In this document: positions 10,913 to 22,314 of the stretch, one piece after another
Position numbering within the stretch: position 1 is the stretch's first letter
Layout: every line of letters starts with the position of its first letter
Source of the DNA: Brevibacillus humidisoli
GTDB lineage: Bacteria > Bacillota > Bacilli > Brevibacillales > Brevibacillaceae
DNA length: 64,000 nt
Assembly (NCBI RefSeq): GCF_020923435.1
Contig: NZ_CP087263.1
Coordinates: 3,429,970 to 3,493,969, forward strand
Reading direction: 5' to 3'
The notes under the pieces: model-generated
What the model saw: only the letters and a program-made list of their open reading frames with translations
Told to the model about the DNA's origin: nothing
Database searches by the model: none
Translations under genes and position numbers: made by a program

Positions 10913-11557
10913 TTACACGGCAAAGATGTGTTTGCCCACACGCATCGTTTGTGTTCGTGACCAAATCCAATCGGACGTTGCTGTCCGTGGGTTGAAGTAA
11001 TAGAGGGCGCCCCCGGTCGGGTCCCAACCGCGAACGGCTTCCATCGCAGCCCTGTAAGCTGTTCCATTGGGAGTAAGCCAGTACTGTCCGTCATCTACGG
11101 CAGTAAACGCTCTCGGTTGAAAGACGACGCCTGCAACGGTATTGGGAAACTGTGAAGATTGGACGCGGTTCATCACAACGGCGGCCACGGCAACCTGTCC
11201 GGTATACGGTTCCCCTCGTGCTTCCCCGTATACGACATGGGCTAGGATATCCAGTTCACGCTGGTTGACAGATACTTTCTTGAGCATGCTCCAGGTGCGA
11301 GCTCCTACGATTCCGTCGACAGGAAGCCCATACTGATATTGAAACCGCCTTACCGCGGTGGCTGTCTGTTGGCCAAATACTCCATCCAGTTTCTGGTTGT
11401 AGAACCCAAGCAGGTCGAGACGGAACTGCAAATCCCATACGTCGCCGCTCTGACTGCCTGTTCGCAGTACCGGAGCAGCTTCGGCCTGTTCGGTCGGCAG
11501 CAGCATGCCGACGGCTAGGAAGAAAAAGAAGAAAGGGATTAGCAAGACTTTTTTCAC
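10913..11557 (-). CDS. sleB: Spore cortex-lytic enzyme SleB-like cell wall hydrolase
   Basis: A 214-aa secreted protein: signal peptide (about 1-27, ending AEA), a PG_binding_1 peptidoglycan-binding domain (about 36-93, RTGSQSGDVWDLQFRLDLLG), and a Hydrolase_2 catalytic domain (about 105-214) containing the GEARGEP motif whose first Glu is the family's catalytic residue. SleB is a lytic transglycosylase acting on cortex muramic-delta-lactam during germination. No ypeB lies next to it, unlike the usual sleB-ypeB pair, so this may be a paralogue (a CwlJ/SleB-like spore hydrolase). GTG at 11557 follows AGGAGGAGG. Confidence 0.83.
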   Translation of the reverse strand: MKKVLLIPFFFFFLAVGMLLPTEQAEAAPVLRTGSQSGDVWDLQFRLDLLGFYNQKLDGVFGQQTATAVRRFQYQYGLPVDGIVGARTWSMLKKVSVNQRELDILAHVVYGEARGEPYTGQVAVAAVVMNRVQSSQFPNTVAGVVFQPRAFTAVDDGQYWLTPNGTAYRAAMEAVRGWDPTGGALYYFNPRTATSDWIWSRTQTMRVGKHIFAV

Positions 11558-11735: not shown

Positions 11736-13100
11736 ATGCCCTATACGATTCAAGCGGGTGAAACCCTGTACAGCATCGCAGCACGGTTTGGCCTGACGAT
11801 CCGCGATCTGCTGGCGGCCAATCCGCAAATCTTGCAGCCGGATCTGATCTATCCCGGTCAAGTCATTGATATTCCGGTATCTTCCGCTCAACCTCCGCAA
11901 ACTTTTCGCTATGTCGTTCGCGTCGGTGACACCATGTTCCGGATCGCGCAGCGGTTTCGAGTCAGCATGACCTCCCTGCTGGCCGCCAACCCGCAGATTG
12001 AAAATCCTGCATCGATCGTCCCCGGAGAAATTGTATTTATTCCGCGGCGAGCCATGCGACAGTATGTCGTACAGCCGGGCGATACATTGTATAAGATTGC
12101 ACGTTCCTTTGGTGTTCCTGTCAGCCAACTACAGCAAGCTAACCCTGGTGTGATCGCCACCCAACTGCGGATCGGCCAGATATTAGAGATACCCGAACCG
12201 CCTCAGCGAGAGATCGTCATTCCACGCGAAGATTATGGATACGATGAAATGATGGCTGACCTAGACGCGCTGACGCGCCGCTATCCTTTTATCGAGATGA
12301 CCACAATCGGCCAGTCCGTGCTAGGCCGCAGCATCCCGGCAGTCCGATTGGGAATCGGTCCAAAGGAAGTACACTACAATGCTTCGTTTCATGCCAACGA
12401 GTATATTACCACGCCTATTGTGATGAAGTTTATAGAGGAATACGCGCAAGCGTTCGAAGAAAATCGCTCCATCGGGACCTTCTCTATTCCCGACCTCTAC
12501 AATCAGACTTCGCTCTGGATCGTGCCCATGGTGAATCCCGACGGCGTCGAATTGGTTCTGGAAGGGATTACACCAGACAATCCATACTTTGAAGAGGTGC
12601 TGGTGATCAATGGAGGGTCGCGCAACTTCAGCGGTTGGAAAGCAAATATACGCGGGGTCGATCTAAATGACCAATTCCCTGCTCGCTGGGCCGAGGAAGT
12701 GGCACGCCGGTCGCCAGACAGCCCGGCACCGCGTGACTACCCAGGTCCCGCTCCTCTCTCCGAACCGGAATCGCAGGCGATGGCAGCCTTCACAGAAGCG
12801 CACGACTTCCGCCTGGTGATCGCCTTTCATACACAGGGGGAAGTGATTTATTGGGGGTACCGGGGATTGGAGCCCGCAGAGTCAGAAGCGATCGTCTCCC
12901 GCTTTGCCGACGTGAGCGGCTATCTGCCGATCCGGTATGTAGAGAGCGACGCAGGATACAGAGACTGGTTTATCCAGGAGTATCGCCGACCGGGCTTTAC
13001 GGTTGAATTGGGCAGAGGAGTCAATCCGCTGCCATTTAGCCAATTCTGGGATATTTGGGGCAATACTATCGGGATTTTGTTGACTGGACTTGTCGTTTAA
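11736..13100 (+). CDS. LysM x3 - M14 carboxypeptidase, gamma-D-Glu-diamino acid endopeptidase-like
   Basis: A 454-aa protein with three LysM peptidoglycan-binding repeats (about residues 2-47, 56-101 and 109-153) followed by an M14 zinc carboxypeptidase domain (about 165-450). Zinc motif HANEY (H-x2-E) is near residue 225, the second His is in AFHTQGE, and the catalytic Glu is in FTVELGRG. NPDG is also present. The architecture matches endopeptidase I of sporulating bacilli, which cleaves gamma-D-Glu-meso-DAP bonds. There is no signal peptide, as for that enzyme, so action in the mother cell or forespore is likely. AGGAGGGG precedes ATG 11736. Confidence 0.88.
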   Translation: MPYTIQAGETLYSIAARFGLTIRDLLAANPQILQPDLIYPGQVIDIPVSSAQPPQTFRYVVRVGDTMFRIAQRFRVSMTSLLAANPQIENPASIVPGEIVFIPRRAMRQYVVQPGDTLYKIARSFGVPVSQLQQANPGVIATQLRIGQILEIPEPPQREIVIPREDYGYDEMMADLDALTRRYPFIEMTTIGQSVLGRSIPAVRLGIGPKEVHYNASFHANEYITTPIVMKFIEEYAQAFEENRSIGTFSIPDLYNQTSLWIVPMVNPDGVELVLEGITPDNPYFEEVLVINGGSRNFSGWKANIRGVDLNDQFPARWAEEVARRSPDSPAPRDYPGPAPLSEPESQAMAAFTEAHDFRLVIAFHTQGEVIYWGYRGLEPAESEAIVSRFADVSGYLPIRYVESDAGYRDWFIQEYRRPGFTVELGRGVNPLPFSQFWDIWGNTIGILLTGLVV

Positions 13101-13108
13101 ACCAAGCG

Positions 13109-13139
13109 AAAAGATCGTGCTCGGAAGGCACGATCTTTT
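13109..13139 (+). terminator. Rho-independent terminator of the M14 peptidase gene
   Basis: AAAAGATCGTGC pairs with GCACGATCTTTT (13128-13139). The stem itself supplies the T-run. Confidence 0.85.
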
Positions 13140-13194
13140 GCAGCCTACGAAAGCCTACTCGAACGCAAGAGCGGCATCCCCATATCCTTGCGGG

Positions 13195-14604
13195 TCAATC
13201 ATGAAAATCGATCACCGCTTCAGGATCGATCAACTGACCATCCTTCACGATTTCAAATGATAGATGCGGACCTGTACTTCTTCCCGTTGACCCGATGGTT
13301 CCAATATGCTGACCTTTGCTTACCTGCTCTCCTTCTGTAACCATAATTTCTTCCAAGTGACTGTACACAGATTCATAAGAATCAGAATGGACAATCACAA
13401 TATGGTTCCCGTCACCTGATTCATATCCAGCTTTCTGAATGATGCCGTCCACAGTTGCATACACTGGCGTGCCTTTTTGATTCGCAATCGATACGGCATA
13501 GACGTTGTGCTTGGTCTTTTCTCCATAACGTGACGTAACCGTTCCATCAGCCGGAACCATGAATGAACCTTCTTGATCGGATCGCTCTGCAAGGGCCTGC
13601 ATATTGGGATTGGTAAAAATCAAAGCGGAGACAATCGCAATGCAGGTCACGATCAACAGGCTGAATAGGGTTCTTTTCTTTGAAAATAACATTTCAACTC
13701 TCCTTTTTGTCATGTTCGTTTTTCTTGAGATAAATGAAATGGCGGAATAACTCCCTGTGCCTGATCGGATCTCCACCATTTTTGTCAATGTATGTCCGTA
13801 CTGAATAGGGGTGAAGTGCTTTTGCAGGGCAAAATCACAAGACAATTCCTGATCTTCCCTCATCTTGAAATAGGCCTTCCATACAAATGGGTTAAACCAG
13901 TGCATGACGACCAGCACGATCATAAGTCCATTCCAGAAGATATCCTTCCTGCGGATATGGATCAACTCATGCATGAAGATGCATGTCCATTCCTGATCGT
14001 TCAGTTTCCCTTCCAGATCGCATGGAATCAGTATCTTGGGCTTATACAAACCAAATGTGGCAGGAGAGGATACGAGAGTAGTCATGCTCAATGCGATTGA
14101 AGAGTGAATGCCCAGTTTTTCCTTGCATCGATCTAGACAGGCTGCCAAATCCTGATTCGCTCGGTCGATCGGTATGGATTGTTTTTTTAATGATGTATGT
14201 AATGTGACGTGTGAAATCAGGAAAAAAACGGCGACGCCAAGCGCACCAATCAGCCAAACCCAATAAGCTGCTATCCACCAATCAAATCGTGATTCATCCT
14301 TAAATAGCGCTGGTTCCGGTTGCTGCGGATTCGATTGAAGCAGCGCCGGATCCTGCTCTGCAAGATAGGGTCCATAGTCTGCAAAGTAAGGAACATCGCT
14401 CCATAAGTTGAATTCACCTGATGGGAACCATGGGATTAACAGACGGATCGTCAGAGCAATCCATAAAAAGTAGAAGAGCCTCGGATCCTGTCTATTCCCT
14501 AAGATTCTCCGAGCCAATAAAACCAGGACGATCACAATCGTAGCAGCAGGCGACATCATAACCACCAAATGAAATACAGACTCGGGAATCATAAATAAAC
14601 TCAT
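13195..14604 (-). CDS. BlaR1/MecR1-like M56 membrane protease with C-terminal degenerate M23 domain
   Basis: A 469-aa protein. Helices lie at about 12-32, 43-60, 112-132 and 313-331. A cytosolic M56 gluzincin domain carries HELIH at 212-216 and the Glu ligand in EDQELSCD (252-255). After the last helix, instead of the penicillin-sensing transpeptidase-like domain of BlaR1, there is a LytM/M23 domain (about 350-465: GTPVYATVDG, YSHLEEI, GSTGRSTGPHLSFEI). In that domain the usual Asp ligand is Ser372 and the HxH pair is H447-L-S449, while His416 remains, so the domain is probably not catalytic and could bind peptidoglycan as a sensor. It overlaps the BlaI-type repressor gene by four bases and should cleave it on activation. 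Confidence 0.87.
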   Translation of the reverse strand: MSLFMIPESVFHLVVMMSPAATIVIVLVLLARRILGNRQDPRLFYFLWIALTIRLLIPWFPSGEFNLWSDVPYFADYGPYLAEQDPALLQSNPQQPEPALFKDESRFDWWIAAYWVWLIGALGVAVFFLISHVTLHTSLKKQSIPIDRANQDLAACLDRCKEKLGIHSSIALSMTTLVSSPATFGLYKPKILIPCDLEGKLNDQEWTCIFMHELIHIRRKDIFWNGLMIVLVVMHWFNPFVWKAYFKMREDQELSCDFALQKHFTPIQYGHTLTKMVEIRSGTGSYSAISFISRKTNMTKRRVEMLFSKKRTLFSLLIVTCIAIVSALIFTNPNMQALAERSDQEGSFMVPADGTVTSRYGEKTKHNVYAVSIANQKGTPVYATVDGIIQKAGYESGDGNHIVIVHSDSYESVYSHLEEIMVTEGEQVSKGQHIGTIGSTGRSTGPHLSFEIVKDGQLIDPEAVIDFHD

Positions 14605-14990
14605 GGTGCATCCTGTGCCTTGTTATCCAGGATTTGCTTCAATTCTTCAATCTCATCCTTCGTGAGCTTCTCTTCTTTCAAAAAATGAATGATCATTGGG
14701 GCCAGAGATCCGTTATAGATTCGTTGTAAAAAACTGCGCCTTTCCATTCTGCAACATTCTTCTTCAGTCACAACTGGTGAATAGTAGTACATTTTCCCTT
14801 CTTTCGTAAACGTTATGGCATTCTTTTTCAGCAGGCGATTTAATAACGTCTTGACCGTCCGTGGACTCCAGTTGTTCGGAGAGGCAAGTTGATCGATCAC
14901 TTCCTGCGCTGTTGCAGGCGACGATTTCGACCACAACACGCGCATCACTTCCCATTCTGATTCTGATATTTGTGGGATTTTCACATTCAT
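14601..14990 (-). CDS. BlaI/MecI/CopY family transcriptional repressor
   Basis: A 129-aa winged-helix repressor (Penicillinase_R family). The N-terminal DNA-binding part includes ISESEWEVMRVLWSKSSPATAQEV and the recognition helix WSPRTVKTLLNRLLKKNAI. The C-terminal dimerisation helices include the EEKLTKDEIEELKQIL run. In BlaI the site cut after induction lies in the dimerisation part; Asn/Phe-type cleavage residues cannot be assigned here. ATG at 14990 follows AAGGAGAG. A canonical operator lies just upstream, so the operon is probably autoregulated. Confidence 0.92.
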   Translation of the reverse strand: MNVKIPQISESEWEVMRVLWSKSSPATAQEVIDQLASPNNWSPRTVKTLLNRLLKKNAITFTKEGKMYYYSPVVTEEECCRMERRSFLQRIYNGSLAPMIIHFLKEEKLTKDEIEELKQILDNKAQDAP

Positions 14991-15010
14991 CCAACTCTCC
15001 TTGCCTATTA

Positions 15011-15046
15011 ATTACATATGTAATCAAATAAAGATTACACTAGCAA
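15011..15046 (-). promoter_or_regulatory. Promoter and BlaI-type operator of the repressor/sensor operon
   Basis: The 14-base palindrome ATTACATATGTAAT (15011-15024) has the TACA-N2-TGTA core of BlaI/MecI operators. On the minus strand it covers a -10-like TTACAT (15018-15023) placed 17 bases after a -35-like TTGCTA (15041-15046). A second half-site GTGTAATC lies within the spacer. Binding is inferred from known operators of the family. Confidence 0.72.
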
Positions 15047-15150
15047 TCGGATGTGTGCCGATGATGTAAACAACTTGCAATCTGAGATATATTGTAGGCC
15101 GTTTCTTGGGTAGGCAGACAGGGCAGATGTTTGTTTCTATGGAGAATTAG

Positions 15151-15176
15151 AAGAGGAACCCCGAGAGGTTCCTCTT
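15151..15176 (-). terminator. Hairpin terminator after the DinB gene
   Basis: AAGAGGAACC pairs with GGTTCCTCTT. The following T-tract on the minus strand is short (CTAATTC). Confidence 0.6.
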
Positions 15177-15240
15177 AAAATAAATCATTCGCAGCGTGTC
15201 GCGCAGGTGGATCGGTTGAACGTTGCCGCTTCCTAACAAA

Positions 15241-15744
15241 TCAACTACCAATTAACTCTTCGTCCGCACTTGAACCATATACTGCCGGAACAGGGATGTC
15301 CAAAAGCCGCAGATAAACGACCAACTGTCCGCGATGATGATACCAGTGGTTCAGCATGGTTGAGCGCACCATCATGTATCTTGGTGCGGAGATCACTGTT
15401 TCCTCCCCGTGGACCATCTTCCATTCGGCCAACATGTCGTCCTCTTTCCAGGCAGAAAGTTTTGTCTTTGCGATGGATTCGCTTTTGTCAAATGCCGTAA
15501 GGATCTCGTTGAGAGAGGAGGCTTCCGGCAGTGGCACGGTTGGAACCTTCCGCTCTGATTCGCTGAAAAATTCCGCCAGTTCCCCTGGCAGCACGGCCAC
15601 GTGCAAAGCAAGCTCTCCTAAAGACATTGACTTGGGATGCGGCTTCCAAGAAAGTTTGTCTTCGGGTATGCGCTTGAGTACGCGACGTGTCGATCTGGCT
15701 TCTTCTGTAAACTCATCCAATAGCCATTCTGTCATTGAGATCAT
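15241..15744 (-). CDS. DinB family protein
   Basis: A 167-aa four-helix-bundle protein of the DinB/YfiT superfamily. The metal triad is seen as His in ELALHVAVLP (near residue 46) and the pair in LNHWYHHRGQL (near 135-139). Members are often thiol-dependent S-transferases (bacillithiol users in Bacillales) or of unknown role. ATG at 15744 has AGGAGGAGGG six bases upstream; the longer frame from 15792 crosses that site. It is monocistronic. Confidence 0.84.
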   Translation of the reverse strand: MISMTEWLLDEFTEEARSTRRVLKRIPEDKLSWKPHPKSMSLGELALHVAVLPGELAEFFSESERKVPTVPLPEASSLNEILTAFDKSESIAKTKLSAWKEDDMLAEWKMVHGEETVISAPRYMMVRSTMLNHWYHHRGQLVVYLRLLDIPVPAVYGSSADEELIGS

Positions 15745-16142
15745 GTCACCCTCCTCCTGCACAATCGCATCAAAGCGGCTGCTCCTAACCATTTTCCTTT
15801 AGCTTTAGTGTAACAAATGATGGAAGTTAGGATTTCTCTTCGATTGCGGCTTTGAACGAAAGCAACCCGCTTCTATGCTAGCCAGTGGGTTGAAAAACAG
15901 GGATTTCTGAACTAATGGTTCCAGTTATTTTGTTGTGATACTCGATTACAAGGGTTGAGGGTTTGTAGTCCGTTTGACGAAGATTCCGTCGACCTAATGG
16001 CAATATATGGTTATGTTTTCCCTAGTTTTTAGAGATAATAAAAGTATCTTTACCAAAAAACGGAATCGCAAGAGACTCGTTTAGAGAAGCTCATGGTACG
16101 CGAACAACGAATGCAGTCTCTTTGAGTAAAGGAAGAAGGACT
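15745..16142. other. Intergenic region, nothing recognised
   Basis: A gap of nearly 400 bases between the divergently transcribed DinB and CBO0543 genes. No hairpin with a T-run, no RNA motif and no short frame with a ribosome site was found. It presumably holds both promoters. Confidence 0.4.
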
Positions 16143-16649
16143 ATGCACTTTCTGATTGCCGGTTGGATTGTTTTCGCGGCGTGGAAGTGGGGGGATTGGG
16201 CCGATTGGAGACGCTACCACGCAACCATGCTCTACATTGCATTGGGAAATCTGATGTACCACATGCTGACCAAGGATCACTGGCTGTGGAAGCTGCAGCC
16301 CGATCTGCTTCCTACCCATGTGATTACGGAGGTTATTTATACCCTCATTATCTTCCCCCTGTCCGCGTTTTTGTTTCTCTCCAACGATCCACCAGACCGC
16401 AAAGGGAAGATCCTGCACACCGTAAAGTGGATTATCATCTATGTTGGACTGGAGTTCATCGGGATGCTAACGGGACGGGTTCTCTATCAGTTGGGCTGGA
16501 ACCTGTTCTGGTCTGCCGTGTTTAACTGCATCATGTTTCCGATGCTGCGATTGCACTACCACAATCCGGTGCTCGCCTATCCACTCTCCTTTGTGATTGC
16601 GGTGGCCCTTTTGATCCTGTTTGATATTCCTCTACAGACAGCATCGTGA
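16143..16649 (+). CDS. CBO0543 family membrane protein
   Basis: A 168-aa integral membrane protein with about five hydrophobic helices. The family look is clear from the N-terminal HFLIAGWIVFAAWKWGDW, followed by YHATMLYIALGNLMYHML, WKLQPD, and a central ITEVIYTLIIFPLSA. Function is unknown. ATG at 16143 follows AAGGAAGAAGG; the in-frame TTG at 16122 would place the site inside the gene. It converges with the TIMP-like gene, 21 bases between stops. Confidence 0.8.
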   Translation: MHFLIAGWIVFAAWKWGDWADWRRYHATMLYIALGNLMYHMLTKDHWLWKLQPDLLPTHVITEVIYTLIIFPLSAFLFLSNDPPDRKGKILHTVKWIIIYVGLEFIGMLTGRVLYQLGWNLFWSAVFNCIMFPMLRLHYHNPVLAYPLSFVIAVALLILFDIPLQTAS

Positions 16650-16670
16650 GCCGGTTGGGATGCAGAGCTG

Positions 16671-17231
16671 TCAGGGAACGTTCCTGTTTCGCCTCAGCAG
16701 TATGATGATGAGAGCAACAAGCACTCCCGCGATGAGAATACCCGACGCAGCGTACAACCGGGCAGGGGTGCTGCTTTCATTCTTGTTGCTCACGTGATCA
16801 GGCTCATCTTCCTGACCGGCATCTGCAGGATCTTTTTCCGTCTGACCATCCTTCATCTCCGTTCCTGTCCCCAAGAAAGAGAGATCTTCCTCTGCGTTGG
16901 TTATCTCACTCGTTCTTGAACAGAGACTGGTTTCCCACTGCTGTCCCTTTTCGTTTGTTGCATATACCAGATATTCTTTACCCTCTTCAAACCCAAATCC
17001 ACAGGAGGCCTCATGAAGGGCTGTATGCACAATCACTTGTGAGGGAATCTCTCCTTTCCAGCTCCGATCCGCTTTCAACGTTACCACGAGGTTTTCGGCA
17101 CGTTGCTCGATGTCGACAACTTTCGCCCGAAACACACCATCTGCCTGCTCATACGCCTCTTCAGGTGTCTGCGGTACGCAGGAGCAGGCTATGCATGGGG
17201 AGGGCACGATGGCAAACAAGCCGAAACTCAA
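16671..17231 (-). CDS. TIMP-like (NTR domain) protein with C-terminal membrane anchor; start disrupted
   Basis: The frame encodes a hydrophobic leader remnant, then C-S-C-V-P-Q-T-P-E-E-A-Y...A-D-G-V-F-R-A-K-V-V, close to the N-terminus of animal tissue inhibitors of metalloproteinases. Cys at positions 16, 18, 77 and 104 of the frame match the spacing of TIMP Cys1, Cys3, Cys70-72 and Cys99-101. An acidic linker and one membrane helix (about 160-179) follow, then RRNRN. In this frame only TTG at 17231 is available and it cuts the signal peptide in half. The well-placed ATG at 17287 (after AAGGGAG) reads MELELIRRYVC and stops at 17252; a single missing base between them would rejoin a full signal peptide. 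It is therefore a recent frameshift or a sequence error. Confidence 0.72.
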   Translation of the reverse strand: MSFGLFAIVPSPCIACSCVPQTPEEAYEQADGVFRAKVVDIEQRAENLVVTLKADRSWKGEIPSQVIVHTALHEASCGFGFEEGKEYLVYATNEKGQQWETSLCSRTSEITNAEEDLSFLGTGTEMKDGQTEKDPADAGQEDEPDHVSNKNESSTPARLYAASGILIAGVLVALIIILLRRNRNVP

Positions 17232-17482
17232 GCTAATAACCGAGACGATAACTAGCAGACATAACGACGGATAAGCTCCAATTCCATCTGCTCCCTTCTT
17301 GGCTTCTTACCTGGTCAGACGATGCTTGGTGCTGGTTTGTTGCCGATTTCTGTTCATGTGGCATAGAGAAAAAACAATAGAACAACATAAATTTTCTTTA
17401 TTTACAAATAATATATACTATGGTAATTTTTATGATGTAAGGTTGGCCACCTTTAACAATAGTTTCAGAGGAGGAAAATCGT

Positions 17483-17821
17483 GTGAAGAAAAAGATGTTG
17501 ATGCATTTGTTTTCGATTGCTTCCGTGTTGACCTTAGTGTCCCCAACAGTTGGATTAGCTGCCGAGGCGGCACCTCAACAAAGTAATGTAAAACTCTCCA
17601 CTGACGACATCCGTATTTATGCTAGCAAGTACATCAAAGATTATGATGTCATTTATCCAAAGTGGAAGTATCCAACAGAAGATGATATACCAAGGGAATT
17701 CTTTTATGAGAAAGATGGCTTTGTTGGTTGGCTCGACTGTAGTTCAGATGATATTTTCTCTGAAGACCGATATAATTGGAGAGTAGAATATTCAGGTTGG
17801 GTTTATTCGTACGGTGATTGA
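17483..17821 (+). CDS. Small secreted protein of unknown function
   Basis: A 112-aa protein with a signal peptide (KKKMLMHLFSIASVLTLV, cleavage likely after LAAEA) and a mature part of about 85 residues rich in Tyr, Trp, Asp and Ser (YDVIYPKWKYP, VGWLDCSSDD, VEYSGWVYSYGD). It has one Cys and no recognised domain. GTG at 17483 has GAGGAGG nine bases upstream. The coding and upstream DNA is clearly AT-richer than the flanking core genes. Before the IS256 insertion it was convergent with the second anti-sigma gene, sharing the hairpin at 17842-17863. Confidence 0.72.
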   Translation: MKKKMLMHLFSIASVLTLVSPTVGLAAEAAPQQSNVKLSTDDIRIYASKYIKDYDVIYPKWKYPTEDDIPREFFYEKDGFVGWLDCSSDDIFSEDRYNWRVEYSGWVYSYGD

Positions 17822-17841
17822 GTGAATATCGGTAGTGTGTG

Positions 17842-17863
17842 CCCCTCTCTTGCTTGAGAGGGG
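17842..17863. terminator. Hairpin terminator, originally shared by convergent genes
   Basis: CCCCTCTC pairs with GAGAGGGG, loop TTGCTT, followed by TTATTGG on the plus strand. It lies eight bases from the IS256 target site. Confidence 0.72.
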
Positions 17864-17870
17864 TTATTGG

Positions 17871-17878
17871 TGCAATAA
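17871..17878. repeat. Target-site duplication, left copy (TGCAATAA)
   Basis: TGCAATAA directly borders the left IS end and is repeated exactly at the right end. Confidence 0.92.
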
Positions 17879-17928
17879 GGGTCTGTCAACAATTTTGTGT
17901 AAACGCCAATTACCACCGAACAATGTAA

Positions 17929-18023
17929 GCCTGTCAAGGTAATCCTTTTCGCCTTGACAGGCGGTTCATACCTCCCACACTCGATGTTCCCCAGCTGTTG
18001 CTGGGGCTGCCTCACGGCGAGTG
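17929..18023 (-). other. Hairpin-rich non-coding tail of the IS256 element
   Basis: GCCTGTCAAGG (17929-17939) pairs with CCTTGACAGGC (17952-17962). CCCCAGC (17989-17995) pairs with GCTGGGG (18000-18006), and CACTCG (17978-17983) encloses it with CGAGTG (18018-18023). The region follows the transposase stop and could act as a terminator or as a structured 3' end. Confidence 0.55.
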
Positions 18024-18049
18024 CGGGGGAAGGGGGGCTGGCCCCCTGA

Positions 18050-19270
18050 TTAGCGCAAGTACGGTTGAACCCGTTCCGGGAAATAGACCGACAACTGAAG
18101 GAGAATCTGTCCCCAGTGCTGAACGCGTCCTGTCCACTTCCGAAGGACGTCCATTGTAGACAGATACAGCATTTTCAGCAGAGCTTCGTCGGAGGGGAAG
18201 ATCGCTTTGCCTTTCGTGACCTTACGCAGCTGCCGGTGGTAGCTTTCGATCACGTTGGTTGTGTAGATCAGCTTCCGAATCTCCGGCGAGTACTTAAAGA
18301 ACGTGGCAATCTCGTCCCAGTTGTTGCGCCAGGAGCGAATGATCAACGGGTACTTCTCGCCCCACGTCTTCTCGAACTGATCCAACTCCTCCAAGGCCGC
18401 ATGTTCGGTCGGCGCTTTGTAGATGGGCTGCAGCGCGCTGGTGATTTTCTTGATGTCCTTGTAGGAGACGTATTTGACGGAGTTACGGATCTGATGGATC
18501 ACGCACTTCTGTATCTCGGTCTTCGGATAGCAGGCCGAAATGGCGTCGCTAAAACCGGTTAAGTTGTCCACGCAGGTGATGAGAATATCCTGCACGCCTC
18601 GATTCCGCATTTCGTTCAGCACATGCAGCCAAAATTTCGCCGACTCGTTCTCGCCTATCCAGATGCCCAGCACGTCCTTATGCCCTTCGAGGTCGATGCC
18701 GATGGCCATGTAGGCGGCCTTGTTGACGATTGCGCCGTCCTGCTTGACCTTAAAGTGGATCGCATCGAGGAAGATGACTGCGTAGACGGTTTGCAGCGGG
18801 CGGTTCTGCCATTCCTTGATGAGCGGGATGATCTTGTTGGTGACGTTGGAAATGAGCGTCGGGGAAACCTCGATGCCGTAGAGCTGCTGCAAATGGTCTT
18901 GGATGTCGCGGGTCGAGACGCCCTTGGCGTACATAGCGATAATCTGATCCTCAATACCGGTAACATTGCTTTGATTCTTCTTCACGATAGTTGGCTCAAA
19001 TTCACCGTTACGATCGCGCGGAACTTGGATGTCGACATCGCCGTACTCCGAACGGACCGTCTTCTTGCTATAGCCATTGCGGCTGTTGGTCGTCTGTTTG
19101 TTCTTCACATCGTGCTTGGTGTAACCAAGGGACGTATCCAGCTCCGCGTTCAGCATCTCCTGGATCGTCTCGGCGAAAAGTTCCTTCAGCGCCGCTTGGA
19201 CATCGTCAACAGACTGCATGTTCTTTTCCTTGATCCACTGCTTCAATTGCTCTTTGGACATGAGGCTCAT
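18050..19270 (-). CDS. IS256-family transposase
   Basis: A 406-aa transposase. The DDE triad is seen as Asp in VIFLDAIHFKVK, Asp in ITCVDNLTGFSDAI, and Glu in TTNVIESYHRQLRK. The C(2)H-like QKCVIHQIRNS and N-terminal helical DNA-binding region (about 1-110) are also typical, and the length is usual for the family. ATG at 19270 is preceded by GGGAG; TTG at 19282 in the same frame lacks a spaced site. No stop or frameshift interrupts it. Confidence 0.95.
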   Translation of the reverse strand: MSLMSKEQLKQWIKEKNMQSVDDVQAALKELFAETIQEMLNAELDTSLGYTKHDVKNKQTTNSRNGYSKKTVRSEYGDVDIQVPRDRNGEFEPTIVKKNQSNVTGIEDQIIAMYAKGVSTRDIQDHLQQLYGIEVSPTLISNVTNKIIPLIKEWQNRPLQTVYAVIFLDAIHFKVKQDGAIVNKAAYMAIGIDLEGHKDVLGIWIGENESAKFWLHVLNEMRNRGVQDILITCVDNLTGFSDAISACYPKTEIQKCVIHQIRNSVKYVSYKDIKKITSALQPIYKAPTEHAALEELDQFEKTWGEKYPLIIRSWRNNWDEIATFFKYSPEIRKLIYTTNVIESYHRQLRKVTKGKAIFPSDEALLKMLYLSTMDVLRKWTGRVQHWGQILLQLSVYFPERVQPYLR

Positions 19271-19336
19271 GTGTTCTCCCAACCTTTCATATGTCTATTG
19301 TAATAGATATGAGGTTTGGAGTTTACACAAAATATC

Positions 19337-20260
19337 TTACAGACTCTGCAATAATTGAACGACAGAAACCAGATCTTTTTTGCATATGGTCTTCACATCC
19401 GAATAAACAGTATACTTTACATTTCTGTTCGTACCAGGAATCTTAATCATGTACTGTATCCTTTTTTGTTCATTCCCCTCATTATCGCGCAAGACTAAGT
19501 AATAAGCTTCAAAATCATTTACTCGAATCGACTCAACCACGGCATCTGCCGGAATCGTTTCTTTCAAATCGTAACTTCCTGCATGAGAAGCTGAAATATG
19601 GATCTTCCCTTGGTTGCTTTGATATTCGGCATCCACTTTCACTATTTCATCGGTAAGGGCCAATATTTTTACCACCATTTGCTTATTTGCTGTCTTCGCT
19701 TGTTCTTTTAACTCTTGTCTGTATCTTTCTCCACTTTCCGGTCGAAATAGGATGGAGCCATTTGTAAAATCGAAATCCTCTAATAAGGTTGGTGGTAACT
19801 GAAAGTATAGGTTCACTACTTGATGGAAAGATGAATAATCACTTGTTTCAAGGGGTTTCCTGAGTATCGTGATGTCATCTTTGTAAGAATCATACACAAC
19901 CATAGCAGTACCATTCGCCATTGACTTTTTTATTTGTTCCAATCGTTGACCGTAAGAAGAGTTCATATCGACAATATTCTGTATTTCGTCCCAACGATAT
20001 TCTGCTTTCTCTAACTGATATGCCGCATTTTGATTCACTATTTCATGATACTGAACAGCCGCAATTCCTGTTGCAGATAAAAGAAAAACCGCCCCAGCTA
20101 TTCCGATCACGATCTTCCGAGATTGTTGGCTGGTATTTATTGTGCTTCGGATATGTGGCTGCTTCTCTGCCAGTCTGTTACTTAGTTTTTCCTTAAAGAG
20201 TTCAAGATCAGTCGAAACTAACTCATATTGTTGTCTTGCTTTGTTCAAATCCCAATCCAC
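19337..20260 (-). CDS. Probable anti-sigma factor (membrane), C-terminus altered by IS256
   Basis: A 307-aa protein with a cytoplasmic N-terminus (about 1-45), one membrane helix (about 48-70, KIVIGIAGAVFLLSATGIA) and a large extracellular domain of unknown family. It follows and overlaps an ECF sigma gene by 38 bases, so it is probably its anti-sigma factor; no zinc motif is present. GTG at 20260 is preferred because GGAGGAG lies six bases upstream; TTG at 20275 would overlap it. The IS256 element inserted in its last codons: the present end is QLLQSL and the stop lies inside the IS, while the reconstructed empty site reads QLLHQ then TAA. The protein is therefore nearly intact. Confidence 0.75.
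   Translation of the reverse strand: MDWDLNKARQQYELVSTDLELFKEKLSNRLAEKQPHIRSTINTSQQSRKIVIGIAGAVFLLSATGIAAVQYHEIVNQNAAYQLEKAEYRWDEIQNIVDMNSSYGQRLEQIKKSMANGTAMVVYDSYKDDITILRKPLETSDYSSFHQVVNLYFQLPPTLLEDFDFTNGSILFRPESGERYRQELKEQAKTANKQMVVKILALTDEIVKVDAEYQSNQGKIHISASHAGSYDLKETIPADAVVESIRVNDFEAYYLVLRDNEGNEQKRIQYMIKIPGTNRNVKYTVYSDVKTICKKDLVSVVQLLQSL
19347..19354. repeat. Target-site duplication, right copy (TGCAATAA)
   Basis: Exact repeat of 17871-17878, directly after the right terminal inverted repeat of the IS256 element. Confidence 0.92.
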
Positions 20261-20747
20261 TCCGATCTCCTCCAATCCGTTTCTTCATCGCTTCTCGTCC
20301 GCGTGCTAGACGAGATTTAATCGTTCCTGTTTTGACACCAACAATCTTGGCTATCTCCGAAATCGTTAACTCTTCAAAATAATACAAAATGATAGGTGTC
20401 CGATATTTTTCCGGTAGAGAGGAAACTACATCATCGATCTTTTCGTGTGTCAACTTTTCAACATATTTTTGTTCGGTGCTCCTTGTCATTCCATCAGGGA
20501 TGGAGTGCATTAAAACCTCTCTCCATCTTTTTCTCTTTGCCATTCTGCACTCGTTTATTACAATTTTTGCAAGCCAAGGAAATGGATCACTCTCGTTGTT
20601 AAGCTGATCTCGATGTCTGTAACCTTTAATCATGGCTTCTTGCACAAGATCTTCGGCATCTATTCGATTACTCACATAAGAATAAGCAAGACGAATAAGG
20701 CGTTGTGCGTATAAATCGACCCAGGCTTCCAGTTGTTTATCAAGCAA
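20223..20747 (-). CDS. ECF-type RNA polymerase sigma factor
   Basis: A 174-aa ECF factor. Region 2 (about 12-75) includes the segment RIDAEDLVQEAMIKGY, and region 4 (about 105-160) includes ELTISEIAKIVGVKTGTIKSRLARGREAM, the helix-turn-helix. A short tail follows. TTG at 20747 has AGGGAGGGAG upstream. Its 3' end overlaps the membrane protein gene that is probably its anti-sigma factor. The pair is different in sequence and partner type from the ECF pair at the left edge, so the window carries two independent ECF switches. Confidence 0.9.
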   Translation of the reverse strand: MLDKQLEAWVDLYAQRLIRLAYSYVSNRIDAEDLVQEAMIKGYRHRDQLNNESDPFPWLAKIVINECRMAKRKRWREVLMHSIPDGMTRSTEQKYVEKLTHEKIDDVVSSLPEKYRTPIILYYFEELTISEIAKIVGVKTGTIKSRLARGREAMKKRIGGDRSGLGFEQSKTTI

Positions 20748-20834
20748 ACTGATCTCCCTCCCTTCATCCCTTCACCCTTATGATGCGAAACACACGCTTG
20801 CGGTTCCCACTCTTTGACGGAAAGGAACATAAAA

Positions 20835-20890
20835 ATACGTGCCCGAGCGACTTAGGCACGCAAGCCTGAAAAGTCACTGCGGACACGTAT
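20835..20890 (-). terminator. Terminator of the suf operon
   Basis: Long hairpin on the minus strand: ATACGTGTCC pairs with GGGCACGTAT, with an inner AGTGACTT/AAGTCGCT and AGGC/GCCT stem, followed by TTTTATG. Confidence 0.85.
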
Positions 20891-20916
20891 CTGCATGTTA
20901 CCTCATGTTACCTCGT

Positions 20917-22314
20917 TTAACCGATCGAACCTTCCATCTCGAACTTAATCAGGCGGTTCATCTCAACGGCATACTCCATCGGCAGCTCTTTCGTAAATGG
21001 CTCAATAAAGCCCATCACGATCATTTGGGTCGCTTCGGCTTCACTCAATCCGCGGCTCATCAGGTAGAAGAGCTGGTCTTCCGATACTTTGGAGACCGTT
21101 GCTTCATGCTCCAACGTGACGTTGTCGTTGAGGATCTCGTTGTACGGAATCGTATCCGATGTGGACAGCTTGTCGAGGATCAGCGTGTCGCACTTGATGT
21201 TGGACTTTGAGCCCTCCGATTTGCGCCCGAACGAAGAGAGACCGCGGTACGTCACTTTTCCGCCCTCGCGCGACAGGGACTTGGAGACAATCGTCGAGGT
21301 GCATTCCGGTGCGAGGTGAACCATCTTGGCACCCGCATCCTGGTGCTGCCCTTTGCCTGCGACGGCGATGGAGAGAACCGTACCTTTGGCACGAGGACCC
21401 TTCATGATGACAGCCGGGTATTTCATCGTCAGTTTGGAACCGATGTTCCCGTCGACCCACTCCATGTTGGCGTCTGCGTACGCAACCGCCCGCTTGGTCA
21501 CCAGGTTGTAAACGTTGTTGGACCAGTTTTGGATCGTCGTATAGCGGCAGCGTGCCCGGTCCTTAACGATGATCTCAACCACAGCCGAGTGGAGCGAATC
21601 CGTACTGTAAATCGGTGCGGTACAGCCTTCCACATAATGGACGAAGCTGTCTTCGTCCGCGATGATCAGCGTACGCTCAAACTGCCCCATGTTTTCCGAG
21701 TTGATCCGGAAGTAGGCCTGCAGCGGCGTCTCCACTTTTACCCCTTTTGGTACGTAGATAAACGAACCACCAGACCAAACTGCCGAGTTAAGTGCGGCAA
21801 ACTTGTTGTCGGCTGCCGGAATCACCGTGGCGAAGTATTCTTTCACCAGGTCAGGGTATTCGCGGACAGCCGTGTCCATATCACAAAAGATGACGCCCAG
21901 CTTCTCCAGGTCTTCTTTCATGTTGTGGTATACCACTTCTGACTCGTACTGGGCAGAGACACCGGCGAGGAACTTCTGCTCCGCCTCCGGGATACCCAGT
22001 TTGTCAAACGTTGCCTTGATTTCTTCCGGCACTTCATCCCAACTGCGTCCCTGTTTCTCAGACGGTTTGACGTAATAGGTGATGTTGTCAAAGTTGAGAT
22101 CGTCCAGCTTGCCGCCCCACGTGGGCATCGGCATTCTCTGAAAGATTTCGAGGGCTTTCAGGCGGAACTCCAGCATCCATTCCGGTTCACCTTTGATGCG
22201 GGAGATCTCTTCGACGATTTCTCGCGTCAGGCCCTTCTTGGTCCGAAATACGGATACGTCCGGATCGTGAAAGCCGTACTGGTATTCCTGCAGTTCAGGG
22301 GCTTTTTTTGCCAT
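20917..22314 (-). CDS. sufB: Fe-S cluster assembly protein SufB
   Basis: A 465-aa scaffold subunit of the SUF Fe-S assembly complex (SufBCD). Right-handed beta-helix family with the typical [22 protein letters not shown] (quoted here in part: [17 protein letters not shown]), whose Cys is the conserved one, and the late [21 protein letters not shown] segment. Normal family length. It is the last gene of sufCDSUB; SufU lies 28 bases upstream. No defect seen. Confidence 0.96.

Follow-up and report, generated by a model that had tools for sequence, protein, structure and literature searches.

A predicted zinc-less LytM domain takes the place of the penicillin sensor in a BlaR1-like protein of Brevibacillus humidisoli

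A BlaI-type repressor gene, an M56 protease gene and their operators

The window analysed here, a 64,000-nucleotide stretch of the Brevibacillus humidisoli genome, carries two reverse-strand genes whose open reading frames overlap by 4 bases: a blaI-type repressor gene (14601..14990, 129 amino acids) and a blaR1-like gene that encodes a fusion of an M56 protease and an M23 domain (13195..14604, 469 amino acids), each identified from its reading frame and Pfam domains. The repressor frame is complete and its product matches Penicillinase_R (E 1.3e-37). PADLOC returned two weak matches, both of them to this protein. His102-Phe103 of the repressor aligns with Asn101-Phe102, the cleavage site of S. 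aureus BlaI, which passages of PMC9834060 give together with the BlaR1 autocleavage site Ser283-Phe284.

The M56 domain of the fusion protein (13687..14565, reverse strand, residues 14-306; Peptidase_M56, PF05569, E 3.8e-51) has the HExxH motif and downstream glutamate of BlaR1/MecR1 proteases. Its HELIH zinc motif is intact (13957..13971, reverse strand, residues 212-216), and H212, E213, H216, E253 and D257 are invariant across 14 aligned fusions, including that of the window. Hydropathy places membrane segments near residues 13-31, 43-61, 111-129 and 312-330, as in BlaR1, with the fourth (13615..13671, reverse strand) leading into the extracytoplasmic domain. In the PDB the fusion protein matches BlaR1 (8exp, E 9e-07). 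Alignment to this structure sets Ser290-Phe291 against the autocleavage site described in part of PMC9834060, although its distance from the conserved KRR is one residue greater than that of the phenylalanine of BlaR1 and of the relatives considered below. A model of the full-length protein has a pLDDT of 67 and is low in the M56 part, and the position of the outer loop is not readable from it.

The C-terminal penicillin-binding transpeptidase sensor of BlaR1 and MecR1 is absent, and a Peptidase_M23 domain stands in its place. None of the penicillin-binding motifs SxxK, SxN, YxN or K[TS]G occurs in residues 336-469; as a control, PF00905 was found in three M56 proteins of 596-605 amino acids from other genomes. 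The NCBIfam model blaR1_generic scores the fusion protein at 154.8 bits, below its cut-off of 400. A direct penicillin sensor is ruled out by the missing SxxK, SxN and KTG motifs.

Two BlaI-type operators precede blaI. The first (15010..15025) adjoins the blaI start, has one mismatch to GATTACANNTGTAATC and contains the perfect palindrome ATTACATATGTAAT; the second, weaker site (15033..15048) has two mismatches to the same pattern and lies 23 bp upstream. These two matches in the window compare with 0.14 expected, and two were reached in 1 of 100 shuffles. The perfect TACA-TGTA operator noticed in a preliminary description of this DNA is thus real and one of a pair, and the signalling operon with intact repressor and protease proposed there is borne out by the adjacent overlapping frames, their domains and these operators. 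A pair spaced 29-33 bp apart precedes blaI in all 10 fusion-carrying relatives read (of 14). In all ten, as judged by eye, a TTGACA box lies just upstream of the operators and the first site covers the place of the -10 element; no such box was seen by eye before the window operon.

Whole-genome scans covered ten genomes of the family, eight of them the same as those read, and the pair was found in each within one mismatch. At up to one mismatch, GAYTACANNTGTARTC has 50 sites in these ten relatives. Twenty of them make up the promoter pairs and the remaining 30 compare with 33 in the control, and all 16 exact matches belong to the promoter of the fusion operon. In the window genome, TACATNTGTA occurs 12 times on the forward strand, below the reversed-pattern control (18 forward), whereas GATTACANNTGTAATC at up to two mismatches has 22 sites against 2 for its reversed control. 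Two of these 22 are the operon's own, 18 lie inside called reading frames (some of which may be spurious) and two are intergenic (L154 and L158). The motif scan yielded no convincing operator elsewhere in the window genome; the excess of weak sites is unexplained and leaves room for unrecognised targets.

No beta-lactamase or penicillin-binding protein (PBP) gene was recognised beside the window operon, or among the representative reading frames scanned in ten neighbourhoods of the fusion operons. In six of the ten (L068, L071, L072, L073, L076 and L077) the operators lie between blaI and a divergently transcribed methyltransferase gene, and a gene of the AAT family (penicillin acyltransferase-like) precedes blaI in three (L069, L070 and L074), where a sodium:solute symporter gene precedes it too. 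Neither the methyltransferase nor the AAT gene lies beside blaI in L075 or in the window, and the ten neighbourhoods point to no fixed target gene.

A second BlaI/M56 locus was inspected in three fusion-carrying genomes and is, by its sequence motifs, a PBP-type bla locus in all three. Its M56 protein (589-593 amino acids) has SxxK and KTG and is encoded beside BlaI, together with a protein of 305-316 amino acids that shows, on motifs only, the SxxK/KTG spacing of class A beta-lactamases; in its operators one or both of the outer bases depart from the fusion-type consensus. The fusion system is therefore additional to the penicillin system in these genomes. This argues, along with the absence of SxxK, SxN and KTG from the sensor and of recognisable beta-lactamase or PBP genes beside the fusion operons, against an indirect response to beta-lactams, in which for example the cytoplasmic coactivator gamma-D-Glu-mDAP would act on BlaI. 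Such a coactivator model exists for BlaI (part of PMC3305447), the M. tuberculosis BlaR1 homologue is described in a passage of PMC9834060 as having no equivalent sensor domain, and the AAT-family gene stands before blaI in three neighbourhoods; even so, we consider a beta-lactam response very unlikely.

The extracytoplasmic LytM/M23 domain

From the Pfam match, a structural model and alignment, the domain that replaces the penicillin sensor spans residues 345-469 (13198..13572, reverse strand), with Peptidase_M23 matched at residues 369-461 (E 8.5e-29). An AlphaFold2 model, built on an alignment of the window protein with 41 M23 segments from viral contigs, predicts a LytM fold with confidence (pLDDT 91, pTM 0.86). 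The best Foldseek matches of the model are the LytM domain of DipM (TM-score 0.86-0.87), StM23 and ShyA, and the list also includes EnvC, LytM and SpoIIQ. These results support the LytM/M23-like fold suggested earlier for the C-terminal sensor.

In M23 enzymes the zinc ligands come from the H(x)nD motif and from the second histidine of HxH, and the first HxH histidine and a histidine about 30 residues before HxH are thought to act on water (active-site passages of the review PMC9662197). All three ligand positions are substituted in the window protein: the Hx3D motif is replaced (13489..13503, reverse strand, codons 368-372), with V368 and S372 at the ligand positions, and the HxH motif reads His-Leu-Ser (13258..13266, reverse strand, codons 447-449), ending in S449. 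Both non-ligand histidines of the active site are kept, namely H447 and the YxH-motif histidine H416 (13357..13359, reverse strand, codon 416), the equivalent of LytM His260, whose role is taken from the same part of the review. The preliminary description had named Ser372, His-Leu-Ser449, His416 and His447, all correctly by alignment. Its account of zinc loss was right for two ligands and incomplete for the third, which is replaced by Val368, and the alignment and structure prediction that it had suggested as checks give a LytM fold with none of the three ligands.

The closest histidine that might stand in for the one lost at position 368 is H366, two residues away, but we see no three-ligand site, because the aspartate and the second HxH histidine are absent. 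Sequence and model together support the view that a LytM fold predicted to be unable to hold zinc in the usual way has replaced the penicillin sensor.

M56–M23 fusions were found in 14 of the 38 other genomes of the window's family (99 genomes were searched, including the window's own). Thirteen are full-length and one is cut by a run of N, and all lie in one other genus of the family (14 of its 26 genomes); none was found in the two further genomes searched from the genus of the window. The 13 full-length relatives are 30-34% identical to the window protein. An assembly or frame artefact is ruled out by this recurrence of the architecture in 13 full-length relatives and one N-cut copy.

The aspartate and the second HxH histidine are absent from all 15 family-type domains, the window's included, while both non-ligand histidines and a GPHL motif are kept in every one. 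The residues at the replaced ligand positions vary among the 15, and a histidine aligned at the first ligand position was noted only in L026. Among free-standing M23 rows, 24 of 25 (two rows being identical) have all five active-site residues. The loss of three of three ligands in the window protein rules out an ordinary active peptidase. That the domain still cuts, with an unusual metal site or none, might be argued from its two non-ligand histidines, from the nearness of H366 to a lost ligand position and from the variable spacing of H(x)nD noted in a passage of PMC9662197; with the aspartate and second HxH histidine gone from 15 of 15 domains and the residues in their place varying, we find this barely credible.

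Selection, genomic setting and fusions elsewhere

Across 31 of 55 pairs among 11 relatives (dS 0.1-1.5; L015, L027, L028 and the window copy left out), the M23 part has a median dN/dS of 0.233 and the M56 part one of 0.250. These similar values indicate that the zinc-less domain is maintained in the relatives. Purifying selection holds for those relatives; the window copy is single, fast-evolving and island-borne. In many pairs of the fusion genes L018-L026, the M23 part has diverged at synonymous sites two to three times as far as the M56 part, as though recombination had swapped the sensor.

The window operon has a GC content of 44.2% against 51.8% for the window and lies in a low-GC accessory island (13100-20917) that also encodes an ECF sigma factor and a transposase of the Mutator type. 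The operon is absent at this place in two genomes of the same genus. In the window, 7.8 kb separate a gene for a LysM-M14 peptidase from the gene at 20917-22314, which we take to be sufB; in one same-genus genome the counterparts of these two genes are directly adjacent, and in the other the gap is taken up by unrelated-looking content, namely genes other than those of the window, including one for a metal-transport ATPase (identified by eye). The operon was probably acquired, given its low GC, the transposase and its absence from this place in the same-genus genomes.

The LysM-M14 gene (11736-13100, forward strand) encodes three LysM domains and an M14 zinc carboxypeptidase, is convergent with the operon and is also present in the two same-genus genomes. 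A protein with PG_binding_1 and Hydrolase_2 domains (10913-11557, reverse strand) is presumably a hydrolase of the spore-cortex type, and a reverse-strand gene at 16671-17231, which shares the island with the M56 protease gene, gives a match to TIMP (tissue inhibitor of metalloproteinase)-like proteins (E 2.6e-07).

The setting gives some weight to a reading in which the M23 domain is a functionless, decaying remnant and the operon a degenerate BlaR1 system: the window copy is the sole one in the three searched genomes of its genus, sits in a low-GC island with a transposase and has a long branch in the M56 tree. However, its frame is full-length, its protease and repressor are intact and its operators are paired, and in the relatives the M23 part evolves under constraint like that on the M56 part (medians 0.23 and 0.25). 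We regard decay as improbable.

The trees do not establish one origin for the window and family copies. In the M23 tree the 15 zinc-less domains were grouped at 95/91; in a reduced tree without the columns around the active site (and without L310, a duplicate of L039, and one L159 domain of two), bootstrap support for the grouping was only 8% (200 replicates; AU p 0.389). In an M56 tree of 34 chosen rows, 8 of them from the 15 of family type, the window row was joined to other family-type rows in 0 of 200 bootstraps (AU p 0.336). The first tree, of 94 rows, came from a quick search only and omits L028/L106 for its run of N and L159 for its truncated M56 part.

A local profile scan of 398 genomes of the phylum, in which the best three candidates per genome were scored, found M56–M23 fusions in at least six genomes of another class than the window's (L151, L190, L192, L191, L167 and L168); a seventh fusion is L159, on MT837794.1. 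Pfam confirms five of the seven. A name of the type "M23/M56 family metallopeptidase" is in use at NCBI. The eight M23 domains of the seven fusions keep all three zinc ligands; the YxH histidine is missing in L151, L190 and L192, and one of the L159 domains lacks the first HxH histidine. Four of the six genome loci have a BlaI-type gene immediately upstream; at L168 none is in view, and the N-terminal part of L191 is encoded in a different frame. The M56 domains of the other-class fusions are set apart from the family-type ones in the tree. MT837794.1, a fecal contig labelled as phage that is probably bacterial DNA, encodes an M56-M23-M23 fusion and two more reading frames with M23 motifs.

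A separate search of 398 genomes of the window's class gave no match outside the family that covered the M23 part at E 1e-45; searches of genomes with the alignment as query scored the best four candidates per genome and so under-count fusions outside the family. In viral contigs, nothing was confirmed with either the M23 domain alone or the fusion alignment as query; an M23 alignment gave 574 matches there, of which the best 80 were kept. No plasmid or phage record had a match that covered 80% of the fusion protein. A scan of genome contigs with the single protein gave 11 distant M56 loci. At one locus, L126 (G403), the M56 protease carries a NAGPA phosphodiester glycosidase domain, a further case of an exchanged C-terminal part. 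The window genome has a second BlaI/M56 locus (G000:C1:2626466-2633005; L001, L065-L067), with a BlaI match split over two frames and an M56 protein of 733 amino acids that has no Pfam domain after the protease.

A candidate cell-wall receptor and its place among known systems

From these sequence features, the gene pair is best read as a BlaR1-type switch whose receptor would be a pseudo-LytM domain that binds cell-wall peptides or a cell-wall protein. BlaI dimers would bind the two conserved operators and shut the operon. The M56–M23 protein is predicted to cross the membrane four times and, if oriented like BlaR1, would have its protease inside and its LytM domain outside. Lacking the zinc ligands, the folded LytM domain would bind without cutting, and its retained groove histidines suggest a stem peptide or cross-bridge of the cell wall as the ligand. 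By homology with BlaR1, in which the drug is believed to push the outer loop out of the active site of the sensor (passage of PMC9834060), a ligand in the LytM groove, or its loss, may shift the sensor on the membrane and free the protease. The freed protease would then cleave BlaI at the conserved phenylalanine, as in BlaR1, and the operon would induce itself. In some relatives the divergent methyltransferase gene, absent beside the window operon, is a candidate further target.

The nature of the ligand is where two lines of evidence diverge: retention of the groove histidines speaks for a peptide of the cell wall, and the behaviour of other LytM domains that have lost activity favours, by analogy, a protein partner. 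The pseudo-LytM domain might accordingly be a docking module in the manner of EnvC and NlpD that senses a cell-wall hydrolase or a divisome protein; degenerate LytM proteins of the EnvC/NlpD type switch on a peptidoglycan amidase through direct contact. The LytM domains of DipM and EnvC are among its structural matches, and inactive or degenerate M23 folds with known roles mostly bind proteins, according to part of PMC9662197; however, all 15 domains keep both non-ligand histidines and GPHL, which are not obviously needed for docking, a point that is suggestive only. We think docking possible and on the whole unlikely, and lean towards a two-gene switch of the BlaI/BlaR1 kind with a LytM receptor for a cell-wall stem peptide or cross-bridge. 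With either type of ligand, the fusion protein is likely to monitor the cell wall through binding and not through cutting.

More tentatively, the BlaR1 frame may on more than one occasion have become a general cell-wall receptor through LytM domains that hold without cutting, one lineage having lost the zinc but not the groove histidines, and three proteins of another having lost a groove histidine but not the zinc ligands; we offer this as a doubtful but possible generalisation. Should the window and family copies have separate origins, as the trees allow, two losses of zinc would have taken place in one and the same context, and this would argue strongly for selection for non-cutting receptors. 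How Gram-positive bacteria sense damage to the wall, as opposed to the drug itself, is only partly understood, and the union of a structurally known protease switch with a zinc-stripped domain of a cell-wall-peptide family would be a simple, testable receptor. If this is true, BlaR1 sensors would be exchangeable modules and a possible part for wall-stress biosensors.

The M23+M56 architecture has already been mentioned in one review, in a passage that gives it no function (PMC9662197). The same part of the review puts M23 proteins with other catalytic domains, M56 among them, at less than 1% of hits and regards a role of M56 in peptidoglycan cleavage as not shown. We found no report of a zinc-less M56–M23 version or of a sensing role in searches of open-access papers.

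The window operon shares with BlaR1/MecR1 and BlaI/MecI the M56 HExxH protease, the four hydrophobic segments, the adjacent BlaI-type repressor with TACA-TGTA operators, and aligned sites for autocleavage and BlaI cleavage; it differs in having a zinc-less LytM sensor in place of the penicillin-binding transpeptidase domain and in carrying no beta-lactamase or PBP gene. With the other-class fusions it shares the order of M56 and M23 domains and, for four of their six genome loci, the upstream BlaI-type gene, but those fusions keep their zinc ligands and three of them are without the YxH histidine. DipM has a LytM fold without a complete zinc site. The same is described for EnvC and NlpD in part of PMC9662197 and for B. 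subtilis SpoIIQ in part of PMC4982068. Unlike the window protein, these four act in cell division or sporulation and are not fused to a signalling protease. SpoIIQ, which is not a signalling receptor, has the same LytM domain in C. difficile and B. subtilis, with zinc motifs that, according to the relevant passage of PMC4982068, are intact in one of these lineages and not in the other.
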